Source of the DNA: Desulfovibrio sp. Huiquan2017
Lineage (GTDB): Bacteria; Desulfobacterota; Desulfovibrionia; Desulfovibrionales; Desulfovibrionaceae
Length of the DNA stretch: 64,000 nt
NCBI RefSeq assembly: GCF_017351175.1
Contig: NZ_JAFMPN010000006.1
Span: 1 to 64,000 of the forward strand
Direction: 5' to 3'
Each line of letters opens with the position of its first letter. The stretch's first letter is position 1. The notes beneath the pieces are model-generated. The model worked only from the letters and a program-made list of their open reading frames with translations, was not told where the DNA came from and did no database searches. Positions 937-11,840 of this stretch are shown here, piece after piece. The translations under genes were made by a program, and so were the position numbers.

Positions 937-2205
937 TTAACCGCACCCCGCGCCGCCGCCGGCACAGCCCGAGCCGATGCCCGAACGGCGGACCTTGAGT
1001 GCGTTGATGTCGCCGCCCTCGAAGACGAAGCGCAGGGCGTCCTCGATGAAGCCGTCCACGGTGTGAGCGCGGATGCCGTGCTCCTCAAGGACCAGACGCG
1101 GGGTCTCGCCCACGGCGGCGCAGAGCACGGCCCGGCAATCCTTGAGAGCGGCAGCCAGGTCGGCCCAACGCTGGGGACCACACCCCGCCTGCGGGGCCGG
1201 GCGCTCCTCGACGAACCGATAGCCGCCGGACTCGGACTCGCCCCATATCTGGAAGGCCTTGGCCTCGCCCAGATGCTGGTTGACGAGCAGCCCTTCGCGG
1301 GTAGCCACGGCCACGAACGGGCGGGCCATGGCCGCCTCCAGGGGCTTAAGCTTGGAGCAGGCCTGGAGCGTACCGCACAGGGCCGAGGACTGGTCATCGC
1401 CAAGCAACCCCACGGCGTCGGCGCGGCAACGCTTGCAGTGGGTCATCTGCTCGATAAAGGGTTCGGCCTCCCTGCGCAGGGGCAGGATGGTCTCGCGGCC
1501 CGGTTCCGGGATATGCTCGAACGGAGTGTCGGCCGTGGGCTTGAGCGGGATCATGTTCTGGATGTCCGCGCCCAGGGAAGCGCAGACCCTGGCCACCTCG
1601 ACCACATGATGGTCATTGACGCCGGGGATGACGATGGAGTTGATCTTGACCGTGACGCCACGCTTTTTGAGCCCCCTGAGAGCCGCAAGCTGGCGGTCCA
1701 GGAGGATCTCCGCGCCCTTCTCGCCGTGGTAGACCACGTTGCCGTCCTTGACCCAGGCGTAGATCTTGGCCCCGATGGCCGGATCCACGGCCGAAATGGT
1801 GATGGTTACGTGGGACACGCCGAGCTCGGCGATGTCGTCCAGATACGGCAGGATGCCCATGCCGTTGGTGGACAGGCAGAAAAGCAGTTCGGGATGGCTC
1901 GCGTTCAGCAGCCGCATGGTCTCCAGGGTCTCGGCCGGGTTGGCGAAGGGATCGCCGGGACCGGCGATGCCCGCCACGGTGATGCGCGGCTCCTTCTCCA
2001 AAACCTTTTCCATGTATTCCGCGGCTTGAAACGGCTTGAGCACGCCGGAGGTCACGCCGGGGCGGGACTCGTTCACACAGTCGTACTTGCGGTTGCAATA
2101 GTTGCACTGGATGTTGCACTTGGGGGCCACGGGCAGGTGCACGCGGCCACAGCTTCCGGCGCTCTTCTTGTTGAAACAGGGGTGCTTGGTGGTATCCTTG
2201 GACAT
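937..2205 (-). CDS. nifB: NifB: radical SAM FeMo-co biosynthesis protein with C-terminal NifX-like domain
   Basis: NifB makes NifB-co, the 8Fe-9S-C precursor of the nitrogenase cofactor, by SAM-dependent carbide insertion. The 422-aa product starts with the NifB HPCF motif and has the radical-SAM cysteines in CNIQCNYC (Cys30, 34, 37), followed by NRKYDC and ESRPGV. The AdoMet domain covers roughly residues 20-270. A NifX/NafY-like domain follows from about residue 295. The extreme C-terminus is a Gly/Cys tail (GSGCAGGGAGCG) that might hold metal. The start at 2205 has a CAGGAG ribosome site. It is the last nif gene of the operon, 75 bp after nifN, and would depend on the sigma-54 promoter before nifH. 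Confidence 0.96.
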   Translation of the reverse strand: MSKDTTKHPCFNKKSAGSCGRVHLPVAPKCNIQCNYCNRKYDCVNESRPGVTSGVLKPFQAAEYMEKVLEKEPRITVAGIAGPGDPFANPAETLETMRLLNASHPELLFCLSTNGMGILPYLDDIAELGVSHVTITISAVDPAIGAKIYAWVKDGNVVYHGEKGAEILLDRQLAALRGLKKRGVTVKINSIVIPGVNDHHVVEVARVCASLGADIQNMIPLKPTADTPFEHIPEPGRETILPLRREAEPFIEQMTHCKRCRADAVGLLGDDQSSALCGTLQACSKLKPLEAAMARPFVAVATREGLLVNQHLGEAKAFQIWGESESGGYRFVEERPAPQAGCGPQRWADLAAALKDCRAVLCAAVGETPRLVLEEHGIRAHTVDGFIEDALRFVFEGGDINALKVRRSGIGSGCAGGGAGCG

Positions 2206-2280: not shown

Positions 2281-3648
2281 TTAGATATAGCCGTAGCCGA
2301 TGGGAGAATCGGCCTGTTTCTTCTCGATGACCGCGTTGACAACCCGGTCAAACAGGGCCTGGGTACCCTTGTAGCCGAGAGTCAGGGTGCGCTGACCGCC
2401 GAAGCGGTCATGAATGGGAAAGCCCACGCGGACCAGGGGCACGTTCCACGCCTTGGCGTAGCGGTATCCCTTGGAGTGTCCCACCAACAGATCCGGAGCG
2501 AGTTCCCCGGCCTCGGCCGCGATGTCGTGAAAATCCACGGCCTCGCGCACCTCGGGGGCGATGCGGGCCACGCCGTCGGTGACCTTGGCGATGGCCTTCT
2601 CCAATCCCTTGTTGCGCGCGCCGGTGCCGGCCAGGACCACGTCCACGCCGATCTCGGACAAGAACGCGCACAGCCCCACGACCAAGTCCTCCTCGCCGTA
2701 GACCACGGCCCGCTTGCCGAAGATGTACTTGTGGCCGTCCACGTAGGCGTCCACCAACCGGCCGCGCTCCAGTTCGTAACGACGCGGCATGGCCTTGCCG
2801 GAGATGTCTTCCAGGGTCTCGAAGAAACGATCGGACTCGCGCAGCCCCATGGGCAGGCCGAGGCGGTGATTGGGTATGCCGAACCGCTCCTCCAGGCTCG
2901 CGCCGCCGCTCTTGGCGGGCAGACAGCGGCCGAATTCGATGGTCGCCCGCGAGCCGCTCATGGTCTTGATGTCCCCGATGGGCGTGCCGCCCTCGGGAAT
3001 CTTGACGTAGTCTTCGAGGGCCGGGCCATCCAGGGTCTCGGAGATATCCGGGAGGATGGTCGCCTCGATGCCGAAATGGTCGCAGATGTCGCGCAGATGG
3101 CGGACGTCTTCGCAGGAAACCAGGCTGGGCAGGATGTTCACCCGGCCGGTGGCGGGCGCCTTTTCCAGGCAGAGCTGCTCGACCATGGAACGGACCGCGC
3201 CGTGCCAGCCATCCATATGCGTACCGTTATAGCTGGGGGTCGAAACCCGAACCAGTTCGGGAAGATCGAGATCGCCGAATTCCTTGTAGAACTCCCCGAA
3301 GTACATGGGTACGTCGTCGCCGATGGTCTCGGTCAGGCAGGTGGTCGCCACACCGATGAGCTTGGGCTCGTACTTCTTCATGACGTTGAGGATGCCCTTC
3401 TTGAGATTCGGGCCGCCGCCGTAGATGGCGTTCTTCTCGCCCAGCGCCGAGGACGCGATGTCCACGGGCTCGCGGAAATGGGAGATGATGTAGCGGCGCA
3501 TGTAGGTGGCGCACCCTTGGGAGCCGTGCAGGAAGGGAATGGCCCCCTCCACGCCCCGGAAGGCCAGGGAGGCCCCGAGCGGCGTACACAGCTTGCAGGC
3601 GTTGGTGGTGGAGACGAAATTGGGCCTTGCGGTCTTGACCTTACTCAT
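2281..3648 (-). CDS. nifN: NifN: FeMo-co scaffold subunit beta
   Basis: NifN pairs with NifE in the alpha2beta2 scaffold that matures NifB-co into FeMo-co before transfer to NifDK. The 455-aa product has NifK/NifN-family features: an N-terminal CKLCTPLGA segment, HGSQGCATYMRR, and TTCLTETIGDD. The frame is open further upstream, but the ATG at 3648 is chosen because it overlaps the nifE stop by 8 bp (translational coupling) and has AGGAGG just upstream. No C-terminal NifB fusion is present; nifB is a separate gene 75 bp downstream. Confidence 0.95.
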   Translation of the reverse strand: MSKVKTARPNFVSTTNACKLCTPLGASLAFRGVEGAIPFLHGSQGCATYMRRYIISHFREPVDIASSALGEKNAIYGGGPNLKKGILNVMKKYEPKLIGVATTCLTETIGDDVPMYFGEFYKEFGDLDLPELVRVSTPSYNGTHMDGWHGAVRSMVEQLCLEKAPATGRVNILPSLVSCEDVRHLRDICDHFGIEATILPDISETLDGPALEDYVKIPEGGTPIGDIKTMSGSRATIEFGRCLPAKSGGASLEERFGIPNHRLGLPMGLRESDRFFETLEDISGKAMPRRYELERGRLVDAYVDGHKYIFGKRAVVYGEEDLVVGLCAFLSEIGVDVVLAGTGARNKGLEKAIAKVTDGVARIAPEVREAVDFHDIAAEAGELAPDLLVGHSKGYRYAKAWNVPLVRVGFPIHDRFGGQRTLTLGYKGTQALFDRVVNAVIEKKQADSPIGYGYI

Positions 3649-5044
3649 TGGCGGCCTCCTTGCGGGCTTCCTTGGCGAGGTTGGCGCGATTGGCGCGCCG
3701 CGGGGCGAATTGCCAGACGGGAGACATGGCCGAGGAATGGATCTCGCGGGCGAAGTTGAGCATACCCCGAAACCCTTCCAGGGCCTCTTTGCGCTCGTGG
3801 TTGTGGTCGCAAAAACCCACGCCCAGCTTGTAGGCGATGGGCCGCTCCTTGACCCCGCCCACAAAGACGTCCACATCCTTCTCCTTGATGAAGTGGGAGA
3901 GTTCGAGCGGATTGGCGTCGTCGATGATGACCGTGCCGGGGTCGGTGATCTCGGCCAGCTCGGCGTAGTCCTCCTTGGTGCCGGTCTGGGAGCCGACAAC
4001 CACGACCTTCATGCCCAGATGGCGGAAGGCCTTGACCAGGGAGAAGGCCTTGAAGGAACCGCCCACGTACATGGCGACCTTCTTGCCCTCCAGGTCCCTG
4101 CGGTAGCGGGCCAGTTCGGGCATGAGCTTGCCAAGCTCCTCGCGGACCAAAGCCTGGGTCCGTTCCACGATGCCCGGATCCATGTCCTTGAAGAAGTCGG
4201 CCACCTGGTACAGGGAATCGGCCATGTCCTCGATGCCGAGATAGGAAACGCGCTTGAACGGCGTGCCGAACTCCTCCTGCATCATCTTGGCCAGGTCCAG
4301 AGTGGCCCCGGAGCACTGGACCAGATTCAAGGCCGCGCCGTGACACCGGGCGATGTCGGCCACGCGGCCGTCGCCGGTGATGTTGGCAACCACCTCAACG
4401 CCCATGCGTTCGAAGTATTCGCGAATGATCCAGATCTCCCCGGCCAGGTTGAAGTCGCCGAGGATATTGATGGACACGGGCGAGATGTCGGCGGTGTCGC
4501 CTTTGCCGATGAGCCGAAACATGGCCTTGCATGCGGCCAGGTACCCGGCGCGCTTGTTGCCCTTGAACCCCTCGGACATGACCGGCAGCACCGGGATGCC
4601 CTTCTTTTCGGTCATCTTGCGGCAGACCGCCTCCAGGTCGTCGCCGATAAGCCCCACGATGCAGGTGGAGTAGACGAAGGCGGCCTTGGGAGAGTGCCGG
4701 TCGATGAGTTCATCCAGGGCGGCGGCAAGCTTTTTCTCGCCGCCGAAAATAACGTCGGTCTCCTGAAGGTCCGTGGAAAAGGACAACCGGTGGAGTTCCG
4801 GCCCGCTGGACAGCGACCCCCGGATGTCCCAGGTGTAGACCGCACAGCCGATGGGCCCGTGCACCAGGTGCAGGGCATCGGCGATGGGATAGAGGACCAC
4901 GCGGGAGCCGCAGAACACGCAGGCGCGCTGGCTGACCGCGCCCGCCAGGGATTCGCGGTTGCAGGCGATGTCGATGGCGCCTTCGCCGGTCCGGTGGATC
5001 TGGTCCCGTCTTTCCTCAAGTATGGTCGAACTGGTCGTGCGCAT
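3641..5044 (-). CDS. nifE: NifE: FeMo-co scaffold subunit alpha
   Basis: NifE is the NifD-like half of the NifEN cofactor scaffold. The 467-aa product shows CVFCGSRVVLYPIADALHL, HGPIGCAVYTWD and FSTDLQETDVIFGGEKKL, all typical of NifE. The ATG at 5044 is preferred over one at 5068 because AGGGGAAG lies 6 bases before it; the 5068 start has no ribosome site and overlaps the remnant of the preceding GNAT gene. The end overlaps nifN by 8 bp. Confidence 0.95.
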   Translation of the reverse strand: MRTTSSTILEERRDQIHRTGEGAIDIACNRESLAGAVSQRACVFCGSRVVLYPIADALHLVHGPIGCAVYTWDIRGSLSSGPELHRLSFSTDLQETDVIFGGEKKLAAALDELIDRHSPKAAFVYSTCIVGLIGDDLEAVCRKMTEKKGIPVLPVMSEGFKGNKRAGYLAACKAMFRLIGKGDTADISPVSINILGDFNLAGEIWIIREYFERMGVEVVANITGDGRVADIARCHGAALNLVQCSGATLDLAKMMQEEFGTPFKRVSYLGIEDMADSLYQVADFFKDMDPGIVERTQALVREELGKLMPELARYRRDLEGKKVAMYVGGSFKAFSLVKAFRHLGMKVVVVGSQTGTKEDYAELAEITDPGTVIIDDANPLELSHFIKEKDVDVFVGGVKERPIAYKLGVGFCDHNHERKEALEGFRGMLNFAREIHSSAMSPVWQFAPRRANRANLAKEARKEAANE

Positions 5045-5160: not shown

Positions 5161-5487
5161 TCATTCGGTGAGCCTATGGATCAGCAGTTCGCCGAGGCCC
5201 TGGCCCCGCCAGTCCTCACGGACAACCACATCTTCGATGAGGACGGCGGGACCGCCTTCGGCCTCTTGGATCGTCAGCCGTCCCGAACACAGACCGACCA
5301 CAGTCCCGTCGGCGATGTTCGCGATCAGGATGCGTCCCCGACCGTTTTTCAGCATCAGTTCCGGATCGCGCCGTTGCCCGTCCCTGTTTACGGTCTCCTC
5401 GCAGGGCGAAACGACCGAACGGTGCAGGGACACGAGACCGGGAAGGTCCGCGCGGGTTGCGGGGCGGATGACGACGGCTTCAGGCAT
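5161..5487 (-). CDS. GNAT-family N-acetyltransferase, probably truncated by a nonsense codon
   Basis: The 108-aa product has the GNAT beta-strand layout and the acetyl-CoA pyrophosphate loop as DWRGQGLGELLIHRL near its end. Family members usually run to about 140-160 aa. Here the protein stops just after motif A, and the expected C-terminal strand lies in the same frame beyond the stop (5068-5160). It sits between the 2Fe-2S ferredoxin and nifE in the nif operon, so it is translated with nif mRNA if at all. The substrate is unknown. Without the C-terminal strands the fold may be inactive. Confidence 0.7.
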   Translation of the reverse strand: MPEAVVIRPATRADLPGLVSLHRSVVSPCEETVNRDGQRRDPELMLKNGRGRILIANIADGTVVGLCSGRLTIQEAEGGPAVLIEDVVVREDWRGQGLGELLIHRLTE

Positions 5488-5502: not shown

Positions 5503-5805
5503 TTAGGACGCCAGGTACTCGGCGGCGGGTTCGCCGTCTTCCAGGCCGTCCAAAATGGTGTCGATCGCTTCTTCGGAATTCACGCCCTTGAACCACCAGT
5601 TCTCGGGCTGGATGACCATCATGGGCCCGGACTCGCACTGCTTCAGGCAGGTGGAGCCGACCACCAGGGCGTCCATGCCGCGATCCAGAATCTCCTCCTC
5701 GATATATTGCAGGAACCCGTCGGTCTGCTTGTGACAGATGCCCTTGGGCTCTCCGGCCGCGCGGAAGGACTGACAACAGATGATCATTCTCTGGGGGATA
5801 GCCAT
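5503..5805 (-). CDS. Thioredoxin-like [2Fe-2S] ferredoxin of the nif operon
   Basis: The 100-aa product has the thioredoxin-fold 2Fe-2S ferredoxin pattern: cysteines at 10/11 and 24 (CCQSFRAAGEPKGIC) and at 53 and 57 (TCLKQCESGP), then PENWWFKGV. Such Shethna-type ferredoxins are common in nif operons, where they are proposed to carry electrons for nitrogenase or cofactor assembly. It is cytoplasmic and has no signal. It lies 20 bp after the NifB-like gene and 15 bp before the GNAT gene. The start at 5805 has a GGAGAG-type ribosome site. Confidence 0.85.
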   Translation of the reverse strand: MAIPQRMIICCQSFRAAGEPKGICHKQTDGFLQYIEEEILDRGMDALVVGSTCLKQCESGPMMVIQPENWWFKGVNSEEAIDTILDGLEDGEPAAEYLAS

Positions 5806-5825: not shown

Positions 5826-7001
5826 TTACTTCTTGTTCTTCTTGCCTTTCTTACCGCCCCCGTAGAGCACATCCACGGTTCCCTCGATCTCGCCGTCCGT
5901 GATCAGGACGGACAGACCCTTGCGGCTCAAAATTCTTCTCGGGTTCTCCCCGGCCGAGGCGGCCAGCAGAACGAAACAGTCATGCAGGATCTCGGACAGC
6001 TCCTCCCAGCGCCGAGCTCCGGCCCCGGGCTCCGGCAGATCGCGCATGCCCAGCAGACAGGCCAGGCCGTCCCCACGCGGGCCGTAGATCATGGCCTTGA
6101 CGGCATGCCCCAGGTGCAGGTCCACCTCCATGCCGTTGGAGCTGACCACGGCCACGTTGGGCCGCTCGCGGGTGGGTTTGGGCAGGACCGCGACCTTGGC
6201 CTCGGGCTTGCCCGCGACCTCCAGGCCGACCAGCTCCACGCCGCATTCGTCGAACCCGGGCATGATGTCGATGTGCCGCCCCGCACGCTCGCGGATCTCG
6301 GACAGCAGCTCCAGGTCTGTGGCCGCCGGTCCGTCCTCCACGCCCTCCCCGGGATGGTAGGGAACCACGGCCATGATATCCGCGCCGAGCCCGGCCATGG
6401 TCGAGGCGATCCTCTCCACATGTCCGGCGTTGTAGCCGGGATACACGGTGGTGTTGACCTTGACGGTCAGCCCGGCGCGCTTGAAGGCGGCCACGGACCG
6501 GGCCTGATCCGTGACCAGCAGCTCGGCGGCCTCCTTGAGCGGCAGGGTGTGCCGGGCGGGCCGGATCCAGGCGTAGAGCTTTTCCGCCACCTCGGGGTCC
6601 ACGGCGTCCACGAGCACGGTCACGTGGGATACGCCGAGATCGGCCAGTTCCTCGGCGTATTCAGCGCCGTTCATGCCCAAGGTGGTCAGGCAAAGGGAAA
6701 GATCGGGGTACTTGTCCCGGACCAGACGCAGGGTGCGCAGGGTCAGATCCGGGGCGGTCAGGGGGTCGCCGGGGCCGGTAATGCCGACGATGCCGATGGG
6801 CTTGTCCTGCTCCAGGACGTGATCCAGCCAGTTGAGGGCCTCCTCGGGCATCATGGCGGGCCTGGGGCCGTCGTTCCCAGCAAAGCGGATGCGGGCATTG
6901 GCGCGCGGGGCCACGGGCAGGTGCAGACGGCCCACGGTTTTGCGTACGGTCATGCCGAAGCAGGGATGGGATGCGTACTCTTCAGCGGTGGTCTTGGACA
7001 T
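5826..7001 (-). CDS. NifB paralogue lacking all radical-SAM cluster cysteines (NifB-like/NifX-like fusion)
   Basis: The 391-aa product follows NifB end to end: HPCF, GRLHLPVAP, GITGPGDPLTAP, GVSHVTVLVDAVDPEV, AWIRP, and a C-terminal NifX-like domain from about residue 270 (NVAVVSSNGMEVDLHLGHA). Where NifB has CNIQCNYC, this protein reads ANARIRFA, so the three AdoMet-cluster cysteines become Ala34, Ile38 and Ala41. It cannot bind the catalytic 4Fe-4S cluster in the usual way. The frame is intact and has a good ribosome site (AGGAA) at 7001. It sits between nifK and the ferredoxin, which argues for a selected non-catalytic role such as cluster carrier, scaffold or regulator. The C-terminus is Lys-rich (GGGKKGKKNKK), unlike the Gly/Cys tail of NifB. 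Confidence 0.88.
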   Translation of the reverse strand: MSKTTAEEYASHPCFGMTVRKTVGRLHLPVAPRANARIRFAGNDGPRPAMMPEEALNWLDHVLEQDKPIGIVGITGPGDPLTAPDLTLRTLRLVRDKYPDLSLCLTTLGMNGAEYAEELADLGVSHVTVLVDAVDPEVAEKLYAWIRPARHTLPLKEAAELLVTDQARSVAAFKRAGLTVKVNTTVYPGYNAGHVERIASTMAGLGADIMAVVPYHPGEGVEDGPAATDLELLSEIRERAGRHIDIMPGFDECGVELVGLEVAGKPEAKVAVLPKPTRERPNVAVVSSNGMEVDLHLGHAVKAMIYGPRGDGLACLLGMRDLPEPGAGARRWEELSEILHDCFVLLAASAGENPRRILSRKGLSVLITDGEIEGTVDVLYGGGKKGKKNKK

Positions 7002-7074
7002 GACGAATTTCCTGGGTTGGGAGTTTGGTCCGGGGCGGAGGGGGAAGGACTCCGCCCCGGACCGGGTTTGAACG

Positions 7075-8451
7075 CTACAGGACGAGCTCGAACTTCGTCT
7101 CCGGATCGTCGCGGTCCTTACGATCCAGGAGCAGATCCAGAATCTTTTCGAGAAGCCGGAGTCCGCCCTTGTAGCCGACTGTCGGGAAGTACTGGTGGCC
7201 CTGGCGGTCCAGGATGGGGAACCCCCAGCGCAGCAGCGGAATGTCCTCATCGCGGGCGATATACTTGCCGTAGGTGTTGCCGATGAGCAGGTCGACCGGC
7301 TCGTTCTTGATCCACTGGTGCATCAGGAACATGTCGCCCTTGGCCTTGACCTTGACCTCGAAGGGCTGGTCCGCGCAGATCTCCCGGATGCGGCGCTCGA
7401 AGGCCTTGCCCGGGGTGCCGGTGACCACGTAGACGGGCTGCATGTCCAAGGAAACCAGGAACTCGCACATGGAGATGAGCTGATCCGGGTCGCCCCAGAT
7501 GGCCACGCGCTTGCCGTAGAAGTACTGGTGCATGTCGGAGATCATATCGACCAGCTGGCCGCGCTCGTTGGACACGGAATCGGGCACGGATACGCCCGCC
7601 ACGGTGCGCAGCACGTCGATGAAGCGGTCGGTGGCGGCCAGGCCGAAGGGCATGTCCAGCACGGTGCACGGGACCTTGCATTTGGCGTCGAGCCAGCGGG
7701 CGGCGTCGGCCGAACACCACTCGCCCAGCGCCAGGGTGCCCAGGGCGTCGCCGGTCCTCTTGAGCGCTTCGATGGTCACGCCGCCGTCGGGGAACATCTT
7801 GTATTCGCCGGTCAGCGGCGCGTTGAGCACGCCGTCGGTATCCGGGAACAGGGTGACGTCCACGCCGACCATTGCGCACAGCCGCTTGATCTCGGCCATG
7901 TCGGCGGGCTCGACCCAGCCGGGGATGACGTTGACTTTGTGGGTCTTGCGGCCCGAGGGCTCGGCCAGTTGGGCCATTGCCTTGACCATGTTGGAGAAGC
8001 CGGTCACGTGGGATCCCACGTAGCTCGGGGTGGCGGCGCCCACCAGGGTCTTGCCCGCCGGGACCTTGCCTTCCTTGGTGGCCTTGTCGAAGATCTGTTT
8101 CAGATCGTCGCCGATGGTCTCGGACAGACAGGTGGTGTGCACGGCGATCACTTCGGGGTCGTAGACCGTGAAGATGTTGTTGATCGCCTGGATCAGGTTG
8201 GCGTGGCCGCCGAACACGGACGCGCCTTCCGTGAACGAGCTGGTGGACGCGGACACGGGCTCCTTGTAGTGCCGGGTCAGGGCCGAGCGATGATAGGCGC
8301 AGCAGCCCTGGGAGCCGTGGGAATGCGGCAGGCAGCCGTGGATGCCCAGCGCGGCGTACATGGCGCCGATGGGCTGGCACGTCTTGGCCGGGTTGATGGT
8401 CAGCGACTTGCGCTCCATCACTTCAACGGGGGTGTGTCTGAGTAATGCCAT
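7075..8451 (-). CDS. nifK: NifK: MoFe nitrogenase beta subunit (short, group III type)
   Basis: NifK forms the alpha2beta2 MoFe protein with NifD and shares the P-cluster. The 458-aa product is short compared with the roughly 510-520 aa of proteobacterial group I NifK and lacks its N-terminal extension, as in Clostridium/Desulfovibrio group III enzymes. P-cluster cysteines are seen in NPAKTCQPIGA, HSHGSQGCCAYHR and TTCLSETIGDD. It lies 15 bp after nifD. Confidence 0.97.
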   Translation of the reverse strand: MALLRHTPVEVMERKSLTINPAKTCQPIGAMYAALGIHGCLPHSHGSQGCCAYHRSALTRHYKEPVSASTSSFTEGASVFGGHANLIQAINNIFTVYDPEVIAVHTTCLSETIGDDLKQIFDKATKEGKVPAGKTLVGAATPSYVGSHVTGFSNMVKAMAQLAEPSGRKTHKVNVIPGWVEPADMAEIKRLCAMVGVDVTLFPDTDGVLNAPLTGEYKMFPDGGVTIEALKRTGDALGTLALGEWCSADAARWLDAKCKVPCTVLDMPFGLAATDRFIDVLRTVAGVSVPDSVSNERGQLVDMISDMHQYFYGKRVAIWGDPDQLISMCEFLVSLDMQPVYVVTGTPGKAFERRIREICADQPFEVKVKAKGDMFLMHQWIKNEPVDLLIGNTYGKYIARDEDIPLLRWGFPILDRQGHQYFPTVGYKGGLRLLEKILDLLLDRKDRDDPETKFELVL

Positions 8452-8466
8452 GGTTCTTATCCTTCC

Positions 8467-10104
8467 TTATTCCCACACAAAGGTGCCGGTGAGTTCGGGA
8501 GACTTCTGCCAAGGGGCCTCCGTGTAGGACCAGACCTTGCTGCTCACGAGGCGATCGACCGTCTTGTAGAAGTTGATCGCGCCCTTGAAGCCCGCGAAGG
8601 GTCCGCCGTAGTCGTAACTGTGCAGTTGGAGCATGGGCACGCCGTTTTTCTGGATGGAGTACTTCTCCTTGATGCCCGCGCAGAAGATGTCCGGCTTGTA
8701 GAGCTCCACCAGCTTCTCGGCCTCGTACTGGTTGAGGTCGTCGATGATGATGGTGCCGTCGGCCATCTGCTTGTTCATGCCCTCGTATTCCTTGAACTCG
8801 AAGCCGGAGTCCTCCAGGGCCTTGAGTTCCTCGGCGGACTTGCGCGGGTTGTAGAGCTCGGGATCGGCCGAAACCTCGATTTCCTCGATATTGCGGGAGT
8901 CGGCGTCCGGGACCAGGTCGGGGATGACCTGACGGCCCTCGTAGTCGTCGCGGTGGGCGAACTCGTATCCGGCGGACAGGGTCTTCATGCCCAGTTCGGT
9001 AAACAGATCCTGATAGTGGTGGGCGCGGGAGCCGCCGACGAAGAGCATCGCGGTCTTGCCCTCGGTGTGCGGCTTGTGCTCGGCCAGGGCGGCCTGAACG
9101 CCCTTCATCTCCTCGGCGATGACTTCCTCGATGCGCTCCATGAGCGCCTCGTCGCCAAAGTACTCGCCGATCTTGCGCAGGGACTTGGCCGTGGAGTCGG
9201 CGCTGATGAAGTTCACCTTGATCCACGGGATGCCGTACTTGGTCTCCATCATGTCGGCCACGTAGTTGATGGACCGGTGGCACATGACCAGGTTCAGGTC
9301 GGCGTGGTGGGAACGGGCGAACTGGTCGTAGGATGAATTGCCGGAGAAGGTGGACAGACAGGTGATGCCGCATTTCTTGAAGATGCGGTCGATCTCGAAA
9401 CCGTCGCCGCCGATGTTGTATTCGCCGAGCAGGTTGATCTTGAACTCGCCTTCCTGGGCCTTGGTCTGCTCGCCCACCAGATGGGTGAAGACCTGGTTGT
9501 TGGCGATGTGGTGACCGGCGGACTGGGACACGCCCTTGTACCCCTCGCAGGAGAAGGCGAACACGTTGCAGTCCCCGAACTTCTCTTTCATCTTCCGGGC
9601 CACGGCATGGATATCGTCGCCGATCAGACCCACCGGGCACGTGGCGAAAACGCAGATGCCCTTGGGATGCAGCAGGTCGTAGGCCTCCTGGATGGCGGCC
9701 GCGAGCTTCTTCTCGCCGCCGAAGATGATGTCCTGGTCCTGCATATCCGTGGAGAAACAGTAGGTCATGAAGTTGTCGCCGTCCGGGCCGGCATCGGTCT
9801 GGTTGCGACGGGTGAGCCAGGAATAGAATCCGCAGCCGATGGGACCGTGGGTGATGTTCACGATGTCGCGGGTCGGCCCCATGATGACGCCCTTGCATCC
9901 CGCGTAGGTACAGCCGCGCATGGTGATGATGCCCGGGATGGTGCGGACGTTGGCCAGGATCTCCGGCGGCGAATCGCTGCCGGTGGCCTCGTTGATCATG
10001 ATCTGCTTGGCGCGCTTGCGGGCCACCTTCGGAGGATACTTCGCAAGGATATCTTCCTTGATGTCGGTGGGCGTGAGCTGCACGAGCTTTTTCGTCTTAG
10101 CCAT
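8467..10104 (-). CDS. nifD: NifD: MoFe nitrogenase alpha subunit
   Basis: The 545-aa catalytic subunit carries P-cluster cysteines in RGCTYAGCKGV, GPIGCGFY and TCPVGLIGDD. The FeMo-co ligands are Cys in CLSTFSGNSSYD and His in LHSYDYGGPFAGF. It is longer than group I NifD because of an internal insertion at roughly residues 385-435, typical of group III enzymes. It starts 24 bp after nifI2 with an AAGGAGAAAG ribosome site. Confidence 0.97.
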   Translation of the reverse strand: MAKTKKLVQLTPTDIKEDILAKYPPKVARKRAKQIMINEATGSDSPPEILANVRTIPGIITMRGCTYAGCKGVIMGPTRDIVNITHGPIGCGFYSWLTRRNQTDAGPDGDNFMTYCFSTDMQDQDIIFGGEKKLAAAIQEAYDLLHPKGICVFATCPVGLIGDDIHAVARKMKEKFGDCNVFAFSCEGYKGVSQSAGHHIANNQVFTHLVGEQTKAQEGEFKINLLGEYNIGGDGFEIDRIFKKCGITCLSTFSGNSSYDQFARSHHADLNLVMCHRSINYVADMMETKYGIPWIKVNFISADSTAKSLRKIGEYFGDEALMERIEEVIAEEMKGVQAALAEHKPHTEGKTAMLFVGGSRAHHYQDLFTELGMKTLSAGYEFAHRDDYEGRQVIPDLVPDADSRNIEEIEVSADPELYNPRKSAEELKALEDSGFEFKEYEGMNKQMADGTIIIDDLNQYEAEKLVELYKPDIFCAGIKEKYSIQKNGVPMLQLHSYDYGGPFAGFKGAINFYKTVDRLVSSKVWSYTEAPWQKSPELTGTFVWE

Positions 10105-10128: not shown

Positions 10129-10503
10129 CTAAGCTATCGCCTTTTCACCTGTTTCATGGGTTCTGACGCGCACGGCGCCGCCGACGGGCAGGACGAAGAT
10201 CTTGCCGTCGCCGGGCTTGCCGGTCCGGTTCACGGCCATGATGGCCTGGACCACGTCCTCCACCATGTCGTCGGGCACGACCACGGTCATCATGCGCTTG
10301 GCGTAGAGCTTGCCCTTCTCGCCCAGCACTTCGGCCGCTTCCTCGTATCCCTGCTCCACTCCGGAGACGATGGCCGCATTGACGAACCCCTTGCCGCGCC
10401 CCTGCGCCTCGTGGGCGAAGAAGGCATCCACACCGGCGTCGGTGAGGGCGGCCTTGGTCTTGTTCATCATGTTCATGCGCACCACTGCGATGACTTCCTT
10501 CAT
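10129..10503 (-). CDS. nifI2: NifI2: PII-like regulator of nitrogenase activity
   Basis: This 124-aa GlnB/PII-family protein begins MKEVIAVVRMNMMNKTKAAL and has a long T-loop region and the family GDGKIFVLPV motif. In NifI systems (best studied in methanogens) NifI1 and NifI2 form a complex that binds NifDK and switches off activity when nitrogen is plentiful, relieved by 2-oxoglutarate. Its position between nifI1 and nifD is the usual one. The last base of nifI1 overlaps its first base, which suggests coupled translation. Confidence 0.93.
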   Translation of the reverse strand: MKEVIAVVRMNMMNKTKAALTDAGVDAFFAHEAQGRGKGFVNAAIVSGVEQGYEEAAEVLGEKGKLYAKRMMTVVVPDDMVEDVVQAIMAVNRTGKPGDGKIFVLPVGGAVRVRTHETGEKAIA

Positions 10504-10856
10504 TACGCGGCCCCCTCGCTGGCTACGGTGGTCTCGTTGACGCCGGAACTGATGGTGTAGACGTCATCCACGTCGGAGACGAAGATCTTGCCGTCGCCAA
10601 AAGCGCCCTTGGTGCCGGAGCGGGCGGCGTCCATGATGGTATTGATGACGAAATCCTTGTCCTCGGCCTTGACGACGCTCATGAGCATGGTTTTGGGGAT
10701 CTCGTCGTAGGTGACCTCGCCGATCTTGATGCCGCGCTGCTTGCCGCGACCGGCCACGGAATATTTGGTGACGGCGGGAAAACCGTTGTCCATCAGGGCG
10801 GCCAACACGTCGTCCGCTTTCTCGGGCCGTACAATCGCTCGAATCATGATCATCAT
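10503..10856 (-). CDS. nifI1: NifI1: PII-like regulator of nitrogenase activity
   Basis: This 117-aa PII-family protein (MIMIRAIVRPEKADDVLAAL; GRGKQRG in the T-loop; GDGKIFVSDVDDVYTI) is placed directly after nifH, as NifI1 is in archaea and group III bacteria. It acts with NifI2 in post-translational nitrogenase switch-off. The start at 10856 has GGAG nine bases upstream. A second ATG follows immediately, so the exact start may be 3 bases later. Confidence 0.93.
   Translation of the reverse strand: MMIMIRAIVRPEKADDVLAALMDNGFPAVTKYSVAGRGKQRGIKIGEVTYDEIPKTMLMSVVKAEDKDFVINTIMDAARSGTKGAFGDGKIFVSDVDDVYTISSGVNETTVASEGAA

Positions 10857-10922: not shown

Positions 10923-11840
<918 letters not shown>

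Follow-up and report, generated by a model that had tools for sequence, protein, structure and literature searches.

A cysteine-less NifB paralogue beside nifK in Desulfovibrio: a retained, non-catalytic protein and probable cofactor carrier

The nif operon of Desulfovibrio sp. Huiquan2017 encodes two proteins of NifB layout, of which the last in the operon is a normal NifB and the other lacks the cysteines of the radical-SAM site. In the excerpted text of PMC11505543, a published genome lists nifB_1 and nifB_2 in this type of operon, and one of the two, probably nifB_1, would be the cysteine-less gene. What does a nitrogenase operon do with a second NifB that has lost its catalytic motif? A reading made from the DNA sequence before any search suggested a retained, non-catalytic role, such as holding NifB-co, delivering it to NifEN, or tuning NifB activity. 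According to excerpts of a NifB survey, entries without its motifs were removed and those lacking Cx3Cx2C were judged to be NifX (PMC5715403); a filter of the kind those excerpts describe would discard this whole class of proteins. No title among the matches listed from the open-access literature has a cysteine-less NifB as its subject.

The window is the whole stretch of DNA that was analysed, 64,000 nucleotides of contig NZ_JAFMPN010000006.1, and its relevant features are collected in Table 1. The gene, which we call pseudo-NifB, has its ATG at 7001 and a stop codon ending at 5826 on the minus strand, with AGGA eight bases 5' of the ATG. The sequence-only reading was correct in its coordinates (5826-7001), in calling the frame intact and in crediting the gene with a good ribosome site; it had left the strand unstated. 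The operon order is nifH-nifI1-nifI2-nifD-nifK-pseudo-NifB-[2Fe-2S] ferredoxin-GNAT remnant-nifE-nifN-nifB, in agreement with the claim that the gene lies between nifK and the ferredoxin and that a normal NifB ends the operon; the GNAT remnant is an addition to that description. Two matches to pseudo-NifB were found in the host genome, the protein itself and the true NifB. Just downstream of nifB lies a tandem repeat (408-932; unit 126 bp, 4.2 copies, 98% matches) and, at 94-339 on the minus strand, a gene for an 81-aa protein without an NCBIfam or Pfam match, whose 58-60% identical relatives are encoded near nif genes elsewhere (L036, L037, L040, L133); a relative in G275 lies between nifK and the ferredoxin.

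Table 1. Features of the nif operon in the window, with positions counted from its first letter
Feature	Position	Strand	Remarks
Pseudo-NifB, Cys-less NifB-like gene	5826..7001	-	391 aa
Radical-SAM-type barrel of pseudo-NifB, NifB fold, SAM-cluster site lost	6252..6935	-	residues 23-250, AF2 model
ANARIRFA replacing CxxxCxxC	6879..6902	-	residues 34-41
NifX/NafY-like domain of pseudo-NifB	5862..6176	-	residues 276-380; PDB profile matches and fold matches
Invariant His296 (DLHLG)	6114..6116	-	aligned with NifX H35 and NafY H121; 58/58
Invariant Cys342 (DCF)	5976..5978	-	aligned with NafY C166
C-terminal tail GGGKKGKKNKK, Gly/Lys-rich	5829..5861	-	
Strong covarying RNA hairpin, gap between nifK and pseudo-NifB	7027..7063	-	
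nifK	7075..8451	-	
[2Fe-2S] thioredoxin-like ferredoxin, constant downstream neighbour	5503..5805	-	
GNAT acetyltransferase remnant, in-frame stop	5161..5487	-	intact in close relatives
nifE	3641..5044	-	
nifN, start not fixed	2281..3618	-	
True nifB, CxxxCxxC and NifX-like domain	937..2205	-	
nifD	8467..10104	-	named by sequence reading, no family search
nifI2	10129..10503	-	named by sequence reading, no family search
nifI1	10503..10856	-	named by sequence reading, no family search
nifH	10923..11750	-	named by sequence reading, no family search

A search for other cysteine-less NifB paralogues, which the sequence-only reading had proposed, was productive. Within the genus, matches were found in 31 of 36 genomes and orthologues of pseudo-NifB in 29 (53-100% identity); in G029 the orthologue is split over two contig pieces, in G003 and G011 nifB is present and pseudo-NifB is not, and in G023 and G024, both less than 90% complete, pseudo-NifB is the sole match. 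The public genome collection was scanned as a whole, using short patterns from the single sequence of pseudo-NifB, and gave 19 loci at 44-68% identity under titles that include Pseudodesulfovibrio, Desulfovibrio, Desulfobulbaceae, Desulfocapsaceae, Desulfobulbus, Candidatus Electronema and others. Eighteen of these titles are of Thermodesulfobacteriota type, and the exception, a MAG titled Pseudomonadota (L049), groups with a Desulfobacterales MAG in the tree. Other Desulfovibrionaceae, Desulfobulbaceae and Desulfocapsaceae also have orthologues. Among 395 sampled genomes of the phylum, 15 (that of Huiquan2017 included) reach at least 374 bits on a family profile, on which the best NifB examined scores 351; with two further orthologues recognised by place and sequence (G332, in two pieces, and G400, at about 309 bits) the total is 17 of 395. 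None of the 15 profile-selected frames contains an internal stop. A plasmid search with pseudo-NifB returned 244 records, all below 60% identity and at most 35.6% among the best 30 of the 244, and where the gene is named among the matches listed it is called nifB or radical SAM protein. The same operon without pseudo-NifB is carried by two plasmids of Nitratidesulfovibrio vulgaris.

Pseudo-NifB and NifB form separate groups. In a tree of 76 sequences from chosen loci, 29 orthologues of pseudo-NifB and 47 NifB proteins lie on opposite sides of one branch with an SH-aLRT of 100, a result that, because the tree has no outgroup, gives the separation of the two and not which side is older. Sequences were labelled by motif and all kept columns were used, after 7 of 83 rows had been dropped (one mislabelled NifB frame, L085, and six near-copies); L118 has a very long branch in this tree. 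We inspected 30 of 73 NifK-bearing genomes downstream of nifK. Where NifK shares 75% identity or more with that of the host (20 sampled genomes, host included), pseudo-NifB follows nifK in 17, and in the next 10 genomes, with NifK at 69-73%, it follows nifK in none. A NifK tree built from 50 chosen rows requires four changes to account for presence of the gene, compared with 13.7 in shuffles, and a natural reading, with the root assumed, is a single gain followed by three losses (G124; G003 with G011; G230 with G275). Five genomes of the same NifK group, among them two from the genus of Huiquan2017, are without the gene, which is therefore not essential to the pathway; in G003 and G011 the ferredoxin comes directly after nifK. 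Pseudo-NifB belongs to one nitrogenase lineage, in which it has been retained over long periods and is dispensable in some hosts.

The replacement of the three radical-SAM cysteines was borne out in full. Over 409 columns pseudo-NifB and the NifB of its operon are 34% identical, and CNIQCNYC of the latter aligns with ANARIRFA of the former. On the NCBIfam nifB model TIGR01290, which has a cut-off of 343.65, pseudo-NifB scores 184 bits and the true NifB 382.7. For comparison across loci, 48 rows were selected by similarity, without use of the motif; they include pseudo-NifB, and three of them repeat another row and two are partial. Thirty-eight of the 48 were aligned, the ten omitted being the two partial rows and the three repeats, which partly overlap, and others left out for brevity. 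CxxxCxxC occurs in 0 of these 48 rows and in 0 of the 15 profile-selected proteins, pseudo-NifB being counted in both sets. Its absence from all 48 similarity-selected rows means that the altered motif is not a sequencing error, and the idea that resequencing might restore CxxxCxxC can be dropped.

Excerpts of PMC7145814 give the ligands of NifB, in Methanosarcina numbering, as C50, C54 and C57 for the SAM cluster, C30, C63, C129 and H43 for K1, and C264, C274 and C277 for K2. We placed these on the NifB of the window by motif spacing and then on an alignment with 58 orthologues of pseudo-NifB, leaving out C264. Since this 58-row set was labelled by its lack of the full motif, the 0 of 58 for CxxxCxxC is by construction; its counts of K-cluster ligands and of the histidine discussed below are independent of the labelling. 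At the SAM-cluster positions C50, C54 and C57, cysteine is found in 0, 0 and 1 of the 58. The C63-type position of K1 has no cysteine (0/58) and the C274-type position of K2 has one (1/58); the columns of C63 and of the ExRP glutamate are gaps in 57 of 58. Other K-cluster positions persist, with cysteine at the C30-, C129- and C277-type positions in 41, 34 and 37 orthologues and histidine at the H43-type position in 38, and the Huiquan2017 protein keeps all four. Because a partial set of K ligands persists in many members, the barrel may still hold a residual Fe-S cluster. The NifB fingerprints named in the excerpts of PMC5715403 (HPC, ExRP, AGPG, TxTxN and Cx2CRxDAxG) occur in 30, 6, 7, 0 and 0 of the 58, against 51, 49, 51, 44 and 51 of 51 NifB proteins.

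The barrel itself is kept, as far as a predicted model can tell. The full AF2 model of pseudo-NifB (pLDDT 82, pTM 0.71) has its best fold matches to the barrel in the NifB structures 7bi7, 6y1x, 7jmb and 7jma at Z 28.8-29.9, and the next radical-SAM folds follow at Z 18.9 and below. GPG is kept in 57 of 58 barrels and the stretch YAWIRP is conserved, with R147 and P148 invariant and P148 specific to the family; this conservation argues for a new use of the barrel and against its decay. On the residues lost, pseudo-NifB is almost certainly without radical-SAM catalysis.

If the barrel no longer works as an enzyme, the second domain deserves attention. The Pfam NifX-domain match of the Huiquan2017 protein reaches 25.6 bits, just under the cut-off of 26.3; profile and fold comparisons nevertheless support the NifX domain that had been read from the sequence. 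A profile of 22 C-terminal domains of pseudo-NifB (the 22 rows of the C-terminal alignment), searched against all PDB chains, matches the NafY core 1p90 at E 2.5e-5 and NifX 9ian at E 0.0044. The domain was modelled alone because the fold matches listed for the complete protein cover the barrel and nothing else. This model (pLDDT 81) has the NafY core (Z 12.2) and NifX (Z 12.0) as its best matches, with other proteins of NifX fold close behind at Z 8.7-11.7. Compared by profile, the domain lies closest to its counterpart in the NifB of the same operon (E 1.3e-21) and at a greater distance from two Serratia NifX-family proteins, which fits descent of pseudo-NifB from a two-domain NifB. The NifX family TIGR02663 gives no match to pseudo-NifB at E up to 1, and 4 of the 22 C-terminal domains match it weakly (best E 0.021).

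One histidine of this domain is present in all 58 orthologues, and every NifB protein with such a domain has it too (42 of 42). His296 of pseudo-NifB corresponds to NifX residue 35 in a printed alignment and to NafY residue 121, with the offset set by the HFGSC stretch (H121, C125). In the excerpted report of a cryo-EM handover complex, NifX H35 ligates NifB-co (PMC13128457), and NafY H121 is described, in excerpts of PMC8496260, as the key FeMo-co ligand within a His-Phe-Gly motif common to NifB and NifX; in pseudo-NifB the motif is His-Leu-Gly, not His-Phe-Gly. The same excerpts report NafY C166, which aligns with Cys342, to be unimportant for FeMo-co binding (PMC8496260). The last 14 residues carry a net positive charge in 45 of 46 rows and include a cysteine in 28 of 46. 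The NifE-binding tail of NifX was not seen in pseudo-NifB, which has a basic tail.

Selection has acted on the two domains in an order opposite to that in NifB. Across 210 non-independent pairs from 21 genomes with both proteins, mean identity is 0.667 for the barrel and 0.747 for the NifX domain of pseudo-NifB, compared with 0.906 and 0.786 in NifB, and the NifX domain is the more identical of the two in 193 of 210 pairs for pseudo-NifB and in 0 of 210 for NifB. Conservation is thus inverted relative to NifB, with the NifX domain and not the barrel the better conserved part. Median dN/dS (NG86; 28 pairs from eight close genomes) is 0.32 for the barrel and 0.18 for the NifX domain of pseudo-NifB, and 0.07 and 0.16 for those of NifB; YN00 estimates were set aside, having few usable pairs. 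The barrel has been freed from catalytic constraint, yet both domains are under purifying selection. A functionless, decaying copy of NifB, or a sequencing error, would account for the lost catalytic motif and for the absence of the gene from a few relatives, but is barely credible for a group apart from NifB that is present in 29 of 36 genus genomes, has its histidine in 58 of 58 members, shows an internal stop in 0 of 15 profile-selected frames and has dN/dS of 0.18-0.32. The lineage-specific decay that the sequence-only reading had named as fatal to its proposal does not describe so widespread a set of orthologues. We reject decay and error on the cysteine-less orthologues together with dN/dS.

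The neighbours of the gene bear on its likely partner. Immediately upstream is nifK in 45 of 48 loci, and immediately downstream is the ferredoxin in every one of the 46 loci whose sequence continues beyond pseudo-NifB; the GNAT gene between ferredoxin and nifE is present in 34 of 48. In G180 NifB is encoded 33 kb from pseudo-NifB, and in G296, G374 and G392 on a different contig, with pseudo-NifB adjoining nifK in all four, although the last three assemblies consist of 40 to 190 contigs and the separate contigs may partly reflect broken assemblies. In nine loci with nifK upstream (L036-L040, L043, L044, L049, L050), none of nifE, nifN and nifB was seen within 5-8 kb on the downstream side. 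Three loci (L041 and two others, L046 and L048, together two of Candidatus Electronema and one Desulfobulbaceae MAG) have pseudo-NifB and ferredoxin without nifHDK upstream, which weakens the argument for NifDK as partner; the neighbours in L041 include an AraC-type regulator, an ammonium transporter and a PII-like gene.

On a Serratia plasmid the gene after nifK-nifT encodes a 224-aa NifX-family protein whose domain aligns with that of pseudo-NifB. We take this gene to be nifY; its record says NifB/NifX family. In Azotobacter, as excerpts of PMC6016461 state, both NifY and NafY bind the immature MoFe protein ahead of the insertion of FeMo-co. No NifX above the family cut-off was found in the 36 genus genomes, and control genomes were likewise below it; NifX-fold genes number from at least 5 to at least 10 per genus genome, with at least 5 in each genome lacking a match to pseudo-NifB or NifB. 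PF16844 (DIMCO_N), presumably the N-terminal domain of NafY, has no match in the 36 genus genomes or three plasmid records, with controls also silent, and was not reported for pseudo-NifB at E up to 1. Several genomes of the family have NifB-type matches in open frames of more than 900 aa (G370, G144 and, similarly, L105 and L106), possibly NifN-NifB fusions. Excerpts of a published survey call that fusion confined to Firmicutes (PMC5715403).

The gap between nifK and pseudo-NifB holds a hairpin with a 14-bp stem, in which 11 of 14 pairs show two-sided changes that keep the pairing among 12 chosen genus sequences. Hairpins also fold between the two genes in many other loci and are less regular in operons without pseudo-NifB. 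The hairpin may determine how expression differs between nifHDK and the genes for assembly.

Pseudo-NifB is probably a dead enzyme put to use as a cofactor carrier. In the reading that we prefer, with a probability of roughly one half, it would be a non-catalytic escort of the NifX/NafY/NifY kind in which the dead NifB barrel serves as a docking domain, most likely towards NifDK. The protein would derive from a two-domain NifB, and its NifX-type domain would hold an [8Fe-9S-C]-type cluster, NifB-co or FeMo-co, through His296, in the manner of NifX H35 holding NifB-co and NafY H121 holding FeMo-co. The former NifB barrel, its SAM cluster lost, would insert no carbide and would be kept for docking or positioning. 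Docking towards NifDK, with pseudo-NifB working like NifY or NafY, is favoured by the place of the gene. What the analysis shows is the set of orthologues, the ligand positions lost and kept, a predicted fold for each domain, synteny and selection; that the protein binds a cluster, which partner it serves and at which step it delivers we infer. Besides the persisting K-cluster positions, the genomes without the gene, the NifE-binding tail that was not seen and the loci without nifHDK upstream, two further observations count against a cofactor escort: the broken GNAT gene two doors away in Huiquan2017, intact in close relatives, and a separate small NifX-like ORF beside nifB in G336 and G180. 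The function could also be redundant, because the true NifB has the same histidine in its own NifX-like domain. The retained non-catalytic role is strongly supported by the age of the group, its conserved place, purifying selection and the missing SAM-cluster motif, and holding NifB-co is the best-fitting of the roles proposed at the outset, since the invariant NifX-domain histidine is the sole invariant known cofactor ligand. More tentatively, and with some doubt, a dead NifB might have been recruited, in a nitrogenase lineage spanning several families of one phylum, to act in the NifY position as escort and insertase dedicated to FeMo-co, its barrel recognising apo-NifDK (or its cofactor funnel) and its NifX domain carrying the finished cofactor on His296. 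If that is true, pseudo-NifB would add to NifX and NafY/NifY a third kind of cofactor escort, one that arose from the maturase.

The same histidine would also suit a carrier of the NifX kind between NifB and NifEN, which would convey NifB-co and whose barrel would mimic NifB so as to bind NifEN or form a pair with NifB. The predicted NifB shape of the barrel and the alignment of His296 with the NifB-co ligand H35 speak for such a carrier, and no NifX passes the cut-off in the 36 genus genomes, nor in any control genome; but where nifENB lie apart pseudo-NifB stays with nifHDK, the true NifB keeps a NifX-like domain of its own, and the NifX tail that binds a positively charged patch of NifE, as excerpts of PMC13128457 describe, is not seen in a protein with a basic tail. 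We consider this carrier rather unlikely: delivery to NifEN is possible, and synteny leans towards NifDK.

Alternatively, pseudo-NifB might pair with the true NifB as a pseudoenzyme that tunes the activity or stability of the latter. It is a dead paralogue encoded together with the live enzyme, and purifying selection on the barrel, the conserved YAWIRP with its family-specific P148 and the part of the K-ligand set that persists in many members are consistent with it. That the best conserved part is the NifX domain and not the barrel, and that the gene lies away from nifB in several genomes, makes such pairing improbable, and the tuning of NifB activity has gained no positive evidence. Less probable again is a partnership of pseudo-NifB with the [2Fe-2S] ferredoxin encoded next to it, in which it might, for instance, help as an adaptor to pass electrons to NifDK or into cofactor assembly. 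The ferredoxin does follow it in 46 of 46 loci, the three without nifHDK upstream among them; against this, the same type of ferredoxin (74-79% identical) is found in operons without pseudo-NifB (G003, G011, G230, G275), and an adaptor leaves the invariant cofactor-ligand histidine unexplained.

For annotators, genes of this type listed as a second nifB call for caution. Pseudo-NifB is a testable candidate for the traffic of NifB-co or FeMo-co between NifB, NifEN and NifDK in those anaerobes that have no recognised NifX, one that reaches sulfate reducers and cable bacteria and offers one residue as a target for mutation. Should it prove to be an escort, it may be of use in designing compact cofactor-assembly pathways.

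Compared with known systems, pseudo-NifB shares with NifB (the two-domain radical-SAM/NifX-like family of TIGR01290) the domain order, the barrel fold and the PVA, GPG and HLG motifs, but it lacks CxxxCxxC, TxTxN and Cx2CRxDAxG, scores 184 bits where 343.65 are required and forms a separate group. By these measures it is no NifB, the predicted barrel fold excepted, and by fold and ligand residue it goes with the NifX/NafY domain family. With NafY and NifY it has in common a NafY-core domain (in the predicted model), the ligand histidine and a position after nifK comparable to that of the Serratia NifX-family gene after nifK-nifT. Its N-terminal part is a NifB barrel, whereas that of NafY, in the excerpts of PMC8496260, is the all-helical N-NafY domain. 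It resembles NifX in the fold of the domain (Z 12.0) and in the equivalent of H35, but is about 2.5 times longer, is fused to a dead barrel, has a basic, Lys-rich tail and is encoded after nifK, unlike the second NifX-family gene of Serratia, which lies after nifEN. The C-terminal domain also has the same fold as TM1816, PH0822 and the orange protein of D. gigas, which differ from pseudo-NifB in being single-domain chains in the PDB list.
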